The notes beneath the pieces are model-generated. The model was not told where the DNA came from. It ran no database searches and saw nothing but the letters and a program-made list of their open reading frames with translations. The translations under genes and the position numbers were made by a program. Shown here piece after piece: positions 20,070 to 26,084 of a stretch of 41,933 bases of DNA. Positions within the stretch are counted from its first letter, which is position 1. Each line of letters begins with the position of its first letter. Origin of the DNA: Flavobacteriales bacterium (GTDB lineage Bacteria > Bacteroidota > Bacteroidia > Flavobacteriales_D > Sanyastnellaceae); assembly GCA_947463065.1 (NCBI GenBank), contig CANHSF010000004.1, positions 1-41,933 of the forward strand. The letters are read 5' to 3'.

Positions 20070-22592
20070 ATGACAACACACATTCATGACGAAGGAGACT
20101 TGGCCACAACCGCATTTGATGAGGAAGCTGCGTTGCATCATTTGCATCATCATCTGCCTGCCCAAGCTCCTTTAAAAGACTTTATTCATCACAACACTCT
20201 GCATGCCTTTCAGTCGCAGCCCTTTCACGAAGGCATTGGCGCTGCTTCAGCCATTTTTGGTTATCGTGTATCGCCCGACTTGGAGACGTATCGCCAATGG
20301 CATTCGGTTGGGAAAATTCCAGACATCTACCTCAATGCCGTTTTAACACGCAAAAAAGGCGAGGCCCAATGCATGGAGTGGCGCGAACTGTTGTTGCGCA
20401 AAACCTTTTCAAAGCCAGACGCACCGCGCATTGGGGGTTTGCGTAGCCATTGGAAAAAGCACTACAAAATTGATTTGGACGCATTGGTGCATCCCCTCTT
20501 GTTTCGCACACTGTGCAGCTATCTGGATCAAGGAATTGCCAGTTGGTGCTTTCCCATCACCGATGACTCCTTCTTGGACGCGCTGCGCAAACTCAATCAA
20601 CAGAGTGGCATCAAAATCATCCAAGGCAAACGCGCACAGCAACTCCTTCAACACACGGACCTTGGCATTGCCGATCTCTTGAAGGAATTGGTTGGCCAAG
20701 AGGAGTATTATCACGATTATTTGTTCGATCTCAGTTTTGCACATCAAGGCTGGAGCGGCATGGTCAGCGCCGTCGAGCAATTGCCGCATACGCTTTTGGA
20801 TCAACGCAAGATCACATTGCGCCATGCCATCCTCTTCGAATTGCTATTGGAGATCGATGCCTTGGACCGTGAATTTGGACCAATTTGGGCACCGCTCGGG
20901 CAACACGTGAGCACACCTCATACTCCACTTTTTTCGCGCACTTCGTTCACACAATACCGCGAAGTGATCTCGCTTTGGCAAGAGGCTTTGGAGTGGAGTT
21001 TTCATGACCCCCTGTTAGTTGCGCTGAAGGAATCACCGCTTGCACCCAAAGATGTTCAACCCACCACGCAAGCCATTCTTTGTATCGATGACCGCGAATG
21101 CTCGCTGCGCCGCCATTTGGAAAATGGTGAAGGACGATTCGAAACCTTTGGAACACCGGGGTTTTTCGGGGTTGCATTCTACTTCAAACCGCTCAATGGC
21201 AAGTTCATGACCAAACTTTGTCCTGCACCCGTCACCCCCATTCATCTTATTAAAGAGCTTGGCTCGGGGACCGGAACCGAAAGCGATCTGCACTTTTCGC
21301 GTCATTCGCACCACCCGTTGACTGGCGTGGTCATTACCCAACTTGTTGGATTCTGGTCGGCGCTCAAACTTTTATTCAGTTTGTTTTTTCCTAAGATCAG
21401 CGCCAATACCTCCAGTGCCACCCATCACATGCACGCAGACGCTCAACTGACGATTGAGCGCGATGCATCGCACCCGACGGAGGATGGCTTGTTCGTAGGC
21501 TATACCGTTGCCGAAATGTGCGACAGTGTCGAGCGTTTTCTGAAGAGCATTGGCCTCACTGAGCGTTATGGCGACTTGATCTACATCGTAGGACATGGAA
21601 GCAGTAGCACCAACAATCCGCATTTCGCAGCCTACGATTGTGGCGCATGCAGCGGTCGCGCAGGTTCGGTCAATGCACGTGCAATGGCTTACATGGCCAA
21701 CCATAGCGAGGTGCGCAAGCATTTACAAAACATAGGCATCCACATTCCAAGTGCTGCGCGGTTCGTGGGTGCTTTGCACGATACCACGCGCGATGAGATG
21801 CATTATTACGACATACAGTCGCTACCGACAGAACTTCAGGAGCAGCATCGCCGCAATGCACAAGCCTTTCGTGCTGCATTGGATGCCAATGCGAAAGAGC
21901 GCTCGCGTCGATTTGCATCCATCAATACAGCGGCATCGGCGGCAAAAGTGCATCAGCAAGTGGCCCTGCGGTCGGTATCGTTATTTGAGCCGCGACCAGA
22001 ACTCAACCATGCCACGAATGCAGCATGCATTGTTGGTCGGCGCACGTTGAGCAAAAATGTGTTTTTGGACCGCAGAAGTTTTCTCAACTCGTACGATTAT
22101 CGTGTAGATGCGGAGGGCACTTACTTGCATGCCATATTGCGTGCGGTGGCTCCTGTATGCGGCGGCATCAACTTGGAATACTACTTCTCTCGTGTGGACA
22201 ATCAAAAACTGGGCGCTGGCTCCAAACTTCCGCACAATGTGATGGGCTTGATTGGAGTGGCCAATGGCATAGACGGCGACCTTCGGCCAGGACTGCCAAG
22301 CCAGATGATCGAGGTGCATGATCCGGTGCGACTCTTGGTTGTGGTGGAGCATTTCCCGCACATCGTACAAACCGCCATTGCTCGCGACGCCGCCACATTT
22401 GAGTGGTTCCAAAACGAGTGGGTGCGGCTGGTGGCCATTGACCCGACGAACCATGCCACGCATTTGCTCGTGGGTGGAAGGTTTGAGCCCTACAGCCCGC
22501 TTGAAGTTGCCCTGCCTCGGATCAAAAACGTGATGCCCATCATAGAGCGCGCCGAAGAAAACATACCCATTCAAATCCTCGAAACCCTATGA
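20070..22592 (+). CDS. dabA: DabA: zinc-binding subunit of the DAB inorganic-carbon uptake complex (DUF2309/YbcC family)
   Basis: 840 residues from the ATG at 20070 (a TTG 51 bp earlier is less likely). DabA is a cytoplasmic, beta-carbonic-anhydrase-like protein that works with the membrane subunit DabB to convert CO2 to bicarbonate one way, driven by ion flow. The four family metal/active-site residues are all present: C338 and D340 in ILCIDDRECS, H509 in IVGHGSSS, and C524 in AYDCGACSGR. The His-to-Cys spacing of 15 equals that of the characterised Halothiobacillus protein. The stop overlaps the dabB start (ATGA), which implies coupled translation. The His-rich N-terminus (HHLHHHLP) is notable. 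Confidence 0.95.
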   Translation: MTTHIHDEGDLATTAFDEEAALHHLHHHLPAQAPLKDFIHHNTLHAFQSQPFHEGIGAASAIFGYRVSPDLETYRQWHSVGKIPDIYLNAVLTRKKGEAQCMEWRELLLRKTFSKPDAPRIGGLRSHWKKHYKIDLDALVHPLLFRTLCSYLDQGIASWCFPITDDSFLDALRKLNQQSGIKIIQGKRAQQLLQHTDLGIADLLKELVGQEEYYHDYLFDLSFAHQGWSGMVSAVEQLPHTLLDQRKITLRHAILFELLLEIDALDREFGPIWAPLGQHVSTPHTPLFSRTSFTQYREVISLWQEALEWSFHDPLLVALKESPLAPKDVQPTTQAILCIDDRECSLRRHLENGEGRFETFGTPGFFGVAFYFKPLNGKFMTKLCPAPVTPIHLIKELGSGTGTESDLHFSRHSHHPLTGVVITQLVGFWSALKLLFSLFFPKISANTSSATHHMHADAQLTIERDASHPTEDGLFVGYTVAEMCDSVERFLKSIGLTERYGDLIYIVGHGSSSTNNPHFAAYDCGACSGRAGSVNARAMAYMANHSEVRKHLQNIGIHIPSAARFVGALHDTTRDEMHYYDIQSLPTELQEQHRRNAQAFRAALDANAKERSRRFASINTAASAAKVHQQVALRSVSLFEPRPELNHATNAACIVGRRTLSKNVFLDRRSFLNSYDYRVDAEGTYLHAILRAVAPVCGGINLEYYFSRVDNQKLGAGSKLPHNVMGLIGVANGIDGDLRPGLPSQMIEVHDPVRLLVVVEHFPHIVQTAIARDAATFEWFQNEWVRLVAIDPTNHATHLLVGGRFEPYSPLEVALPRIKNVMPIIERAEENIPIQILETL

Positions 22593-24460
22593 TGCACTAT
22601 TTCATTTTGACGCTTATTGCGATTCCATTTAGCGGATTCGTATTGCTATCGCTTTTTCGAACGGAATCAGAAAAATGGAATTCCGGTGTAGCCATTGCCA
22701 CCACTTGGATGCAATTCATCGCCGCCTCTGGGGTTGGTTTGTATTGGTTGTTCTGTGGACACCAGCCTTTCAATGAGAAAGATTGGACATTGTATGCATC
22801 GCACGACTATGAATTCTTTTTTGATTTTTACTTTGATCAAGTCAGCGCCACTTTTGTTTTGGTTGGGGCATTTTTGTCGAGTTTGGTTTGTTTGTACAGC
22901 CGAACGTACATGCACCGCGAAACGGGTTACCGCAGATTTTTCCAAACGATCTTGTTTTTCTTTTTGGGTTACAATATCACGGTGCTTTCTGGCAATTTGG
23001 AGACCTTGTTTATCGGTTGGGAGATTCTTGGGATGTCGTCCTTTTTATTGATTGCCTTTTACCGCCACCGGTATTTGCCTGTAAAAAATGCAGTTAAGGT
23101 TTTTTCGATCTATCGGATTGGCGATGTTGGTATTCTGCTGGCCATGTGGCTGAGTCACCACTTGTGGCATGCGAATATCACGTTTTCCGAACTGGCTGCA
23201 TATCAAGAGGTGCATGACCACATTGCCCATTACAGCGGATTGGCCTTGGCGGTTTCTCTGCTGTTGGTTTTGAGTGCAATGGCCAAATCGGCGCTGTTTC
23301 CCTTTAGCACTTGGCTGCCTCGCGCTATGGAAGGCCCCACGCCTTCATCGGCTATTTTTTATGGATCCTTGTCGGTGCACCTGGGCCTGTTTCTGATGCT
23401 CCGGACGTATCATTTTTGGGAGCATCAAAGTTTGGTTCGTGTGATCCTGTTTGCCGTGGGAGTGATCAGTTTTTTGATTGCTTCGGGCATTGCGCAAGTG
23501 CAGTCGTCTATCAAAAGCCAAATTGCCTATGCCTCCATTGCACAGATTGGGATCATGATGACCGAACTTTCATTCGGTTGGACGACCATGGCCTTGATAC
23601 ATTTTGCGGGCAATGCCTTTTTTCGAACATACCAACTCTTGGTATCGCCCTCGGTTGTGAGCTACAAAATCAGAGATCAGTTTTATCACTTTGAGGGACA
23701 GCGAAGGCACATTGGCAGCGCATTGCCCAAGCGGCTTGTTTATGGGTTGTATGTATTATCGCTGCGCGAATGGAACTTGGATACCTTGTTGTACCGGAGG
23801 TTGTGGAATCCATTGAAGTCGTTGGGCAAGCGCTTTGACTTTCTGACCTTATCGCGGACCTTTTGGTTGTTTGTAGCGTTGTTGTTGGCGGGGGTCATTG
23901 CCCTATACACCAATTACTCCTTGCCCAATCAGATCCATCGTTTTGTGCCCTTTTTGTTTGCTTTGGCCGGCATCGTCATGGTGCTCAAGGCGTTTACAGA
24001 GCGGCACAACCCGTTTACGGCGTTGTTGATGGTGGTGATGAATCACTTCATGGTGGTGATCGCCATTGCCTTCAATGAGCAATACGATGTGATCGAAGGA
24101 TTGCTGTACATCAGCGGTGTTGCTTTTGCTGGAACCCTTGGGTACTTGATACTGAGACGATTTAAACGGTACGAACCGCATTTGGACCTGCACCAGTTTC
24201 ATGGCCACGGCCATTTGCATCCCCGCGTTGCCTTTGCATTCTTGCTCTGTTGCTTGGGACTTTCAGGCTTTCCGATCACCCCTACGTTTTTGGGCGAAGA
24301 CCTCATTTTCAGTCATATTCACGAGGATCAGATCGGATTGGCCTCGTTGGTTGCCATGAGTTTCATTCTCGATGGATTGGCCATCATTCGCCTTTATGCC
24401 CGCTTGTTTCTGGGACCGCACAGTCAGTCCATTTATGAGATGGGTTACCGCAGTTCATAA
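22589..24460 (+). CDS. dabB: DabB: NuoL/MrpA-like proton-channel subunit of the DAB complex
   Basis: 623 residues with about 14-16 hydrophobic segments. It belongs to the proton-conducting membrane transporter family (NuoL, MrpA, MrpD). The key Glu is E145 in GWEILGMSSFLL and the key Lys is K233 in SAMAKSALFPFSTWLP, followed by AMEGPTPSSA; these are the ion-path residues of the family. DabB anchors DabA and supplies the energy coupling. The start overlaps the dabA stop by 4 bp. A His-rich cytoplasmic loop (LHQFHGHGHLHPR, ~531-543) is unusual and might bind metal. With no nuo genes near, and directly after dabA, DabB is a better call than NADH dehydrogenase subunit 5. Confidence 0.93.
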   Translation: MMHYFILTLIAIPFSGFVLLSLFRTESEKWNSGVAIATTWMQFIAASGVGLYWLFCGHQPFNEKDWTLYASHDYEFFFDFYFDQVSATFVLVGAFLSSLVCLYSRTYMHRETGYRRFFQTILFFFLGYNITVLSGNLETLFIGWEILGMSSFLLIAFYRHRYLPVKNAVKVFSIYRIGDVGILLAMWLSHHLWHANITFSELAAYQEVHDHIAHYSGLALAVSLLLVLSAMAKSALFPFSTWLPRAMEGPTPSSAIFYGSLSVHLGLFLMLRTYHFWEHQSLVRVILFAVGVISFLIASGIAQVQSSIKSQIAYASIAQIGIMMTELSFGWTTMALIHFAGNAFFRTYQLLVSPSVVSYKIRDQFYHFEGQRRHIGSALPKRLVYGLYVLSLREWNLDTLLYRRLWNPLKSLGKRFDFLTLSRTFWLFVALLLAGVIALYTNYSLPNQIHRFVPFLFALAGIVMVLKAFTERHNPFTALLMVVMNHFMVVIAIAFNEQYDVIEGLLYISGVAFAGTLGYLILRRFKRYEPHLDLHQFHGHGHLHPRVAFAFLLCCLGLSGFPITPTFLGEDLIFSHIHEDQIGLASLVAMSFILDGLAIIRLYARLFLGPHSQSIYEMGYRSS

Positions 24461-24485
24461 ATTTCAATTATTATTACCAAAGATT

Positions 24486-26084
24486 ATGATCAACGAATTA
24501 AAAAAATATTGGAAGGAGGATATGCTCTCCGGTTTTCTTGTTTTCATACTTGCGCTTCCATTGAGTATGGGCATAGCGCAAGCCAGCGAATTTGAGCCCA
24601 TTTATGGATTATTGACCGCCATGATTGGCGGATTGGTTGTGGCCCTGTTTGCTGGATCACCGCTGACCATCAAAGGACCGGCAGCGGGTCTCATCGTCAT
24701 TGTTGCAGGTGCTGTCAACGAATTTGGCGGTGGTGAAATGGGTTGGCGATTCACCTTGGGAGCCGTTTTGGTGGCTGGGATATTTCAGATCCTTTTTGGC
24801 CTTCTCAAAATGGGCAAACTGAGCGACTTTTTTCCATTGCCAGCGGTGCACGGTATGTTGGCCGCCATTGGAATCATCATCATCAGCAAACAGCTTCATG
24901 GTTTACTTGGTATCAACCCAATGCACAAGCACCTCGACCCGTCCGTTGTTGGCGCTGCTGGTGATAAACCTCTGGTGAAGCCCTTCGAGCTTTTTGAAGC
25001 TATGCCCCATTCCTTGCAGCACTTGAATCATCACGCTTTGATCATAGGCATCGTAAGCTTGATCGTTGTTTTGGGATGGCCATTGGTGAAGCATCCCGTT
25101 GCAAAAAAGATTCCAGCCCCACTTCTTGTTCTTCTGGTAGCGATTCCCCTCTCTAAACTCATTGGGCTCGACGAAAAATTGTTTGTGCATTTTGACAAAT
25201 CACTCCATGACATCATGGAATTGAATGTCAGTTTTGGTGGACTGGAAACTCCGAGCATTTTTATCAAGTATGTTGTGATGTTTTCGATTGTAGGGAGTCT
25301 CGAAGCCCTATTGACAGTAAAAGCCATTGATATGCGCGACCCTTTGCACCGCAACTCCAATACCAACAAAGACCTGAGCGCTCTTGGGTTGGGCAATGCT
25401 ATTGCAGGTGCACTTGGAGGATTGCCGATGATTAGCGAGGTCGCTCGTTCTTCGGCCAACGTCAACAATGGAGGCAAATCGAGATGGTCGAACTTCTTTC
25501 ATGGGTTTTTTATGCTGATTTTCCTTTTGCTAGCTGTCCAGTTCAGCGGCCTCATTCCCAAGCCCGCGCTATCGGCTATGCTCATTGGTGTCGGTCTCAA
25601 ACTTGCACACCCCAATGAGTTCAAGCACATGCTAAAAATTGGTCGTGACCAGCTTTTCATATTCCTGCTCACCATCATCGTGACTTTAGCCACGGATCTG
25701 TTATTGGGCATTTTGGCCGGTATCCTACTCAAACTGATCTTTGAAATTTCCAAGGGGCTCAAGTTTTCTGAGGTTTTCAAGGCCAAAGTTGATATTCAAA
25801 AAGGCGCTGATCAATACGAGGTGATTGCACTGAGCTCTCTTGTTTTCAGCAATTACATTTCGTTGACGAATCAGCTAAACACTATTCCAAAAGACGCGAA
25901 TGTCAAATTAATTGTTTCCAACATCTCTATGATCGACCACTCCACGATGGAGAATTTGCAGCGCCTCTCTTCGGATTTCAAAGCCCAAGGAGGTCAATTT
26001 GAACTGGTCGGATTAGAGCGTTTTATTCAACTCAGCGCAGATCCTCTTTCCGTTCGGATCAATAAAGACATCAACAAAAAATAA
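24486..26084 (+). CDS. SulP-family anion transporter with C-terminal STAS domain (probable bicarbonate transporter)
   Basis: 532 residues from the ATG at 24486 (MINELKKYWKEDMLSGFLV), 25 bp after dabB. It has the SulP core of 10-14 membrane segments (ALPLSMGIAQAS, GLLTAMIGG, PLTIKGPAAGLIVIV, GGLPMISEVARSSANVNNGG) and a cytoplasmic STAS domain at ~440-525 (IVSNISMIDHSTMENL). SulP proteins move sulfate, bicarbonate (BicA) and other anions, usually with Na+ or H+. The dab context favours bicarbonate; sulfate cannot be excluded. A terminator-like hairpin follows, suggesting this is the last gene of the dab transcript. Confidence 0.9.
   Translation: MINELKKYWKEDMLSGFLVFILALPLSMGIAQASEFEPIYGLLTAMIGGLVVALFAGSPLTIKGPAAGLIVIVAGAVNEFGGGEMGWRFTLGAVLVAGIFQILFGLLKMGKLSDFFPLPAVHGMLAAIGIIIISKQLHGLLGINPMHKHLDPSVVGAAGDKPLVKPFELFEAMPHSLQHLNHHALIIGIVSLIVVLGWPLVKHPVAKKIPAPLLVLLVAIPLSKLIGLDEKLFVHFDKSLHDIMELNVSFGGLETPSIFIKYVVMFSIVGSLEALLTVKAIDMRDPLHRNSNTNKDLSALGLGNAIAGALGGLPMISEVARSSANVNNGGKSRWSNFFHGFFMLIFLLLAVQFSGLIPKPALSAMLIGVGLKLAHPNEFKHMLKIGRDQLFIFLLTIIVTLATDLLLGILAGILLKLIFEISKGLKFSEVFKAKVDIQKGADQYEVIALSSLVFSNYISLTNQLNTIPKDANVKLIVSNISMIDHSTMENLQRLSSDFKAQGGQFELVGLERFIQLSADPLSVRINKDINKK

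Follow-up and report, generated by a model that had tools for sequence, protein, structure and literature searches.

A dabA-dabB-SulP operon from a deep, Bacteroidota-centred clade of the DAB family as a putative bicarbonate supply in a Flavobacteriales bacterium

Genes at the locus

The DNA analysed here, referred to as the window, is a stretch of 41,933 nucleotides from a Flavobacteriales bacterium (contig CANHSF010000004.1, assembly GCA_947463065.1), a contig of a 3.06-Mb draft genome of 283 contigs that is 87% complete. It carries genes for the DAB-family proteins DabA and DabB, followed by one for a SulP-family anion transporter (Table 1), which a first-pass annotation made from the sequence alone had described as an inorganic-carbon uptake operon. 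The operon lies where that annotation had placed it, and Pfam scores are far above their cut-offs; PF10070 spans positions 2–747 of DabA with 715 bits (cut-off 25) and the Sulfate_transp domain (PF00916) of SulP scored 207 bits (cut-off 23.2). PDB sequence searches matched DabB to 9rd0_B at 3e-29, and the sole match of DabA was DabA2 of 9rd0. The described ATGA overlap of dabA and dabB was borne out, as was the 25-base spacer (24461–24485) between dabB and the ATG of SulP. Assignment to the DAB family was likewise correct, given the full-length PF10070 match, the zinc site with its dyad and the neighbouring NuoL-like DabB. The third gene had been labelled SulP/STAS, of which the SulP part stands; no STAS match was given by Pfam in the window SulP, the C-terminus of which aligns with the STAS region of 5da0, and Pfam STAS is present in the SulPs of operon relatives. 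A search of the draft genome identified one DabA and one SulP.

Table 1. Positions of genes and residues of the dabA-dabB-SulP operon in the window
Feature	Position	Strand	Remarks
dabA	20070–22592	+	840 amino acids; PF10070 1.5e-214; class with His at transition-state position
dabB	22589–24460	+	623 amino acids; NuoL/Mrp-type membrane subunit; PF00361 1e-39, PF00662; about 70 amino acids longer than DabB2
SulP-family anion transporter	24486–26084	+	532 amino acids; PF00916 5e-61
ATGA, overlap of dabA stop and dabB start	22589–22592	+	sequence
DabA CIDDR motif: zinc ligand C338, dyad D340-R342 (DabA2 C351, D353, R355)	21081–21095	+	
DabA zinc ligands H509, C524 (DabA2 H524, C539)	21594–21641	+	
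DabA H647 codon (Leu658 in DabA2; Gln/His in canonical beta-carbonic anhydrases)	22008–22010	+	invariant in its clade
DabB E145 codon (NuoL E144; DabB2 Ile151)	23021–23023	+	alignment; PMC13144422
DabB Y258, N342, R346, in place of DabB2 proton-path H260, H343, K347	23360–23626	+	
DabB C-terminal motif, residues 560–571, GFPITPTFLGED	24266–24301	+	aligned to NuoM/NuoN/MrpD second half
SulP substrate-site E273, R321 (BicA: Asp258, Gly304)	25302–25448	+	invariant in 113 operon SulPs

The DabA active site and two classes of DabA

Reference sequences of DabA2 and DabB2, the subunits of DAB2 from Halothiobacillus neapolitanus as studied by cryo-EM (PMC13144422), were rebuilt from HMMER alignments (residue checks were passed) and relatives were aligned to them. 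DabA loci were taken from 60 relatives, 399 genomes of the order, 395 genomes of the class and nine plasmid loci (Proteobacteria, Actinomycetota, Halobacteria and one Bacteroidales). DabA was carried by 119 of the 399 order genomes and 78 of the 395 class genomes sampled, which indicates that DAB-based supply of inorganic carbon is common in Bacteroidota, mostly heterotrophs.

C338, D340, H509 and C524 of DabA had been described as near-identical in spacing to the characterised zinc site. This holds, since the gaps between the four residues are 2/169/15 in the window and 2/171/15 in DabA2. The zinc-binding Cys-His-Cys and the Asp-Arg dyad (CDRHC) were retained in all 179 DabA sequences compared. 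The position of DabA2 Leu658 divided these into two classes that separate completely, with His in 144 (His647 in the window), Leu in 34 and one truncated frame left unscored. Leu658 occupies the position of the Gln/His that stabilises the transition state in canonical beta-carbonic anhydrases, and 150 homologues carry it without exception; its replacement by Gln, Gly, Ala or Asn retained DAB2 activity in vivo, and L658Q by itself gave no activity in vitro (PMC13144422). Because Leu658 is replaceable in vivo and L658Q inactive in vitro, His647 hints at intrinsic activity but does not prove it; we infer that it is placed at the metal as Leu658 is in DAB2. An AlphaFold model of DabA had a mean predicted local distance difference test score of 83.6, and Foldseek returned no useful match for it, 9rd0 itself being absent from the results (probably newer than the library).

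Several further characters follow the same division. The gene order is dabA-dabB in 143/143 loci of the His class, the window included, and dabB-dabA in 34/34 of the Leu class, and the median DabB is 622 amino acids long in the former versus 526 in the latter. In a tree of 79 rows the His class formed one side of a single branch, to which FastTree gave a local support of 100, suggesting one origin followed by long retention. By sequence, then, the window falls in a deep side clade of the DAB family that is centred on, and found almost only in, Bacteroidota. A scan of a genome collection with an alignment of the class returned 80 named loci (Runella, Flavobacterium, Arcicella, Aquirufa, Emticicia and others), with His at the key position in every one scored. 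Loss of DabA2 Glu444 was considered as a further class marker and dropped, as Ser occurs there in 21 of 34 DAB2-class proteins, including most of the Bacteroidota DAB2-type ones.

Some loci depart from the common pattern of host or gene content. Azotobacter chroococcum (L269:544–6636) carries a complete Bacteroidota-type dabA-dabB-SulP operon with the His residue, probably by lateral transfer. Two dabAB pairs occur in a metagenome-assembled genome labelled Planctomycetota (L257:1584–11503), one of them a deep sister of the His class at 31% identity that also has His. Tandem dabA genes adjoin a single dabB at L130:6275–11917 and L126:5645–11150. An unannotated sequence deposited as a Staphylococcus phage contig (L323, OR849901.1), probably host DNA, encodes a staphylococcal DabA homologue of the Leu/Trp class, as in DAB2.

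The ion path and C-terminus of DabB

DabB had been credited with E145 and K233 of the NuoL ion path. Both residues are present, but E145 represents the NuoL state and not that of DAB, as DabB2 has Ile151 at this position. The DAB2 residues R182, D185, K235, S256, K310 and H339 (DabB2 numbering) are retained in the window DabB; S316 is replaced by A315, and the residues that mark the DAB2 class, Ile151, H260, H343 and K347, by E145, Y258, N342 and R346. In the His class, all DabB sequences that could be read have E at 151, Y at 260 and R at 347 (alignment gaps aside), and N at 343 with few exceptions. In DAB2, I151E cuts the growth yield by half and Ala at H260, S316, H343 or K347 impairs the complex (PMC13144422).

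The C-terminus of His-class DabB has a conserved motif, GFPItptFiGEDL (window residues 560–572). A profile of DabB residues 360–623 matched the second halves of NuoN, NuoM and MrpD (3e-8 to 4e-5), and E570 aligned with a Glu of the NuoM chain in that region. In DAB2, Glu444 of the DabA finger stands in for the corresponding part of NuoL (PMC13144422); the finger helix of His-class DabA has no conserved acid in the alignment. Because DabB has a NuoM/MrpD-like C-terminal half and the DabA finger is without a conserved acid, it is plausible that the ion path of His-class DabAB is rearranged relative to DAB2. Foldseek matched DabB to NuoL-type chains with a template modelling score of about 0.54. 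In one genome dabB is split over two frames (L139:4948–6812), reflecting either a pseudogene or a sequencing error.

Linkage and fusion of SulP with DabA

A SulP gene was found within 3 kb of dabA-dabB in 117 of the 130 His-class loci with room for it versus none of 27 Leu-class loci (Fisher 7e-21, a p-value that ignores shared ancestry). It lies downstream in 91 loci and upstream in 22, with a median gap of 29 nucleotides, and this persistence on either side is better evidence of linkage than the p-value. In G007, a draft genome of 99% completeness, a single open frame of 1394 codons (L029, 5737–9921) encodes SulP (37–412) and DabA (565–1330; both Pfam) with no stop between the domains, and dabB is next. 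Family relatives of G007 (L024, L086, L091, L134) have sulP and dabA 2–11 nucleotides apart in the same order, so that loss of a stop would suffice for the fusion. It is one observation; no further SulP-DabA fusion was found in the order and class surveys. Felce and Saier are said to have described fusions of SulP with carbonic anhydrase, which like the frame in G007 combine SulP with a CO2-hydrating enzyme, but with a carbonic anhydrase of the canonical kind in the place of DabA.

Operon SulPs of 712–737 amino acids, extended at the C-terminus by about 190 amino acids, were seen at eight loci (L090, L098, L104, L129, L135, L137, L138, L139); seven of these proteins were scanned, and none had a Pfam match in the extension. 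These long proteins had been considered as possible carbonic anhydrase fusions, which was rejected as Pfam identified SulP-family and STAS domains only.

Metabolic context of the genome

The organism had been taken for a probable heterotroph, and within the draft this is supported, as no RuBisCO large subunit was found. The anaplerotic carboxylases suggested as bicarbonate sinks could not be upheld, since neither phosphoenolpyruvate carboxylase nor a pyruvate carboxylase domain was found in the same draft; bicarbonate would then be needed by enzymes such as acetyl-CoA carboxylase and carbamoyl-phosphate synthetase. The draft also gave no match to beta- or alpha-carbonic anhydrase, which makes another CO2-hydrating system plausible. 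The broader statement that the genome has no carbonic anhydrase was softened because two gamma-class-like hexapeptide frames (L304, L309) were identified by eye from sequence motifs. Beta-carbonic anhydrase is absent from the source genome (G000), G004 and G027 and is present in the congener and most dab carriers.

Proposed function and alternatives

We lean, at slightly better than even confidence, towards the operon encoding a membrane-energised CO2-to-bicarbonate converter of a separate, Bacteroidota-centred DAB/DAC clade, functionally coupled to a SulP anion transporter, that feeds heterotrophic carboxylations. Catalysis, coupling, direction and SulP substrate are all inferred from sequence features in what follows. 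Zinc-bound DabA would hydrate CO2 that has entered by diffusion, and an ion, proton or sodium, running down its gradient through DabB, a relative of NuoL and NuoM, would make the reaction one-way. SulP would move the product or a counter-anion beside this site, most likely bicarbonate, perhaps exchanged for chloride, and the resulting bicarbonate would serve the usual carboxylation reactions of heterotrophic metabolism. The first suggestion, that bicarbonate is supplied by two routes, is plausible. This reading is consistent with the rescue of carbonic-anhydrase-deficient E. coli by MpsAB and by DAB2 (PMC6689103, PMC13144422), and with a SulP that persistently adjoins dabA-dabB, is fused once and is absent from DAB2-like loci. 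The earlier view of an ordinary DAB pump was right about the family and incomplete beyond it, having missed the separate clade, the active-site residue, the ion path, the additional DabB C-terminus and the reversed gene order.

Several findings weigh against the converter with a coupled SulP. Path residues important in DAB2 are altered in the DabB of the window clade, and the essential finger residue Glu444 has no counterpart there. The bicarbonate-site residues of the cyanobacterial transporter BicA are missing from SulP, and the two anaplerotic carboxylases were not found in the draft. A role of dab as a general replacement of beta-carbonic anhydrase was rejected, as the congener and most relatives have that enzyme.

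The substrate of SulP bears on a possible but doubtful alternative, in which DabAB works as proposed and SulP is merely co-transcribed, being a common permease for sulfate or for anions in general. The substrates of PF00916 proteins are many, the BicA equivalog model scored 114 bits against a cut-off of 880, and 13 of the 130 clade loci have no nearby SulP. At the HCO3−/Na+ site of BicA the window protein differs by T69A, A301E and T302V, and has Ala66, Glu273 and Arg321; in all 113 operon SulPs the position of Thr69 is Ala and that of Gly304 is Arg, with Glu for Asp258. The Arg is reminiscent of SLC26 and plant SULTR transporters, and because of this resemblance bicarbonate, chloride and sulfate are all possible substrates. 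Against a mere permease, linkage is kept across families and both gene orders and includes the fusion. Moreover, the PAPS (3′-phosphoadenosine-5′-phosphosulfate)-reductase family PF01507 (CysH/CysD) had no match in the incomplete drafts of the source genome and its congener G001, where the former has this SulP as its only one, and no strong match in five of the eight relatives in which a dab-SulP operon was visible. As far as these incomplete drafts show, a sulfate-assimilation role for SulP is thus unsupported.

Co-transport of Na+ and bicarbonate has been proposed for staphylococcal MpsAB (PMC6689103), and the window complex might by analogy be such a symporter and not a CO2 hydratase, a role that the loss of three DAB2 proton-path side chains from DabB could suit by accommodating another ion. 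We regard this as improbable, because neither the zinc site nor the Asp-Arg dyad has been lost, the clade has gained a carbonic-anhydrase-like residue, and the staphylococcal DabA homologue belongs to the other class.

CO2 hydration alone offers little free energy for ion export at normal concentrations, which counts against the operon running in reverse. That direction, with ions exported at the expense of an exergonic DabA reaction, or a role in pH/CO2 homeostasis, is very improbable. A 2017 study that made this guess for the clade proposed energy conversion for ybcC operons (PMC5700660), and the clade DabB, with Glu145 and a NuoM/MrpD-like second half, is more pump-like than DabB2, but the study appeared before the family had been shown to hydrate CO2.

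A bolder form of the converter proposal, which we hold to be unlikely, is a three-part machine with a DabA intrinsically active through the transition-state His, a DabB with its own two-half ion channel in place of the DabA finger, and a SulP passing bicarbonate or a counter-anion that is physically joined in at least one species. If true, CO2 hydration would be coupled to ion flow by a layout unlike that of DAB2.

Comparison with known systems

The spread of the DAB family into heterotrophs is already known (PMC13144422, PMC6689103). Like the window genes, MpsAB of Staphylococcus (PMC6689103, PMC8567241) is a DabAB-family pair that gives a heterotroph bicarbonate, but the staphylococcal homologue from L323 is of the Leu/Trp class and the window DabA of the His class. 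Cyanobacterial BicA (6ki1; PMC13249358) has the SulP fold in common with the window protein, in which Thr262 of BicA is likewise Thr and Asp258 is matched by another acid, but Thr69, Ala301 and Gly304 are replaced by Ala, Glu and Arg.

The window group is almost certainly the 'clade C' of ybcC-nuoL operons with COG0659 in the 2017 COGNAT study (PMC5700660), which already records ybcC upstream of nuoL and a neighbour of the sulfate permease family. That study precedes knowledge of the function and reports NuoM genes too; its main text does not describe the active-site and ion-path differences or a fusion. Searches of the open-access literature gave no account of the His/Leu split, of the altered ion path or of a SulP-DabA fusion. 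The class differences are clean, and the function is predicted.

DAB2 of H. neapolitanus (PDB 9rd0, 9rd8, 9rd9; PMC13144422) resembles the window complex in its two subunits, zinc Cys-His-Cys and Asp-Arg dyad; it differs in its dabB-dabA gene order and in having Leu658, Trp656 and Ala376 where the window DabA has His647, Leu645 and Pro363. Why purified DAB2 needs membrane energy for CO2 hydration, and how the ion path couples to the metal site, are open questions for the DAB family, and for these the His clade represents a natural experiment, in which the 'missing' carbonic anhydrase residue is present and the ion path altered, the complex is kept and an anion transporter has been gained as a partner.

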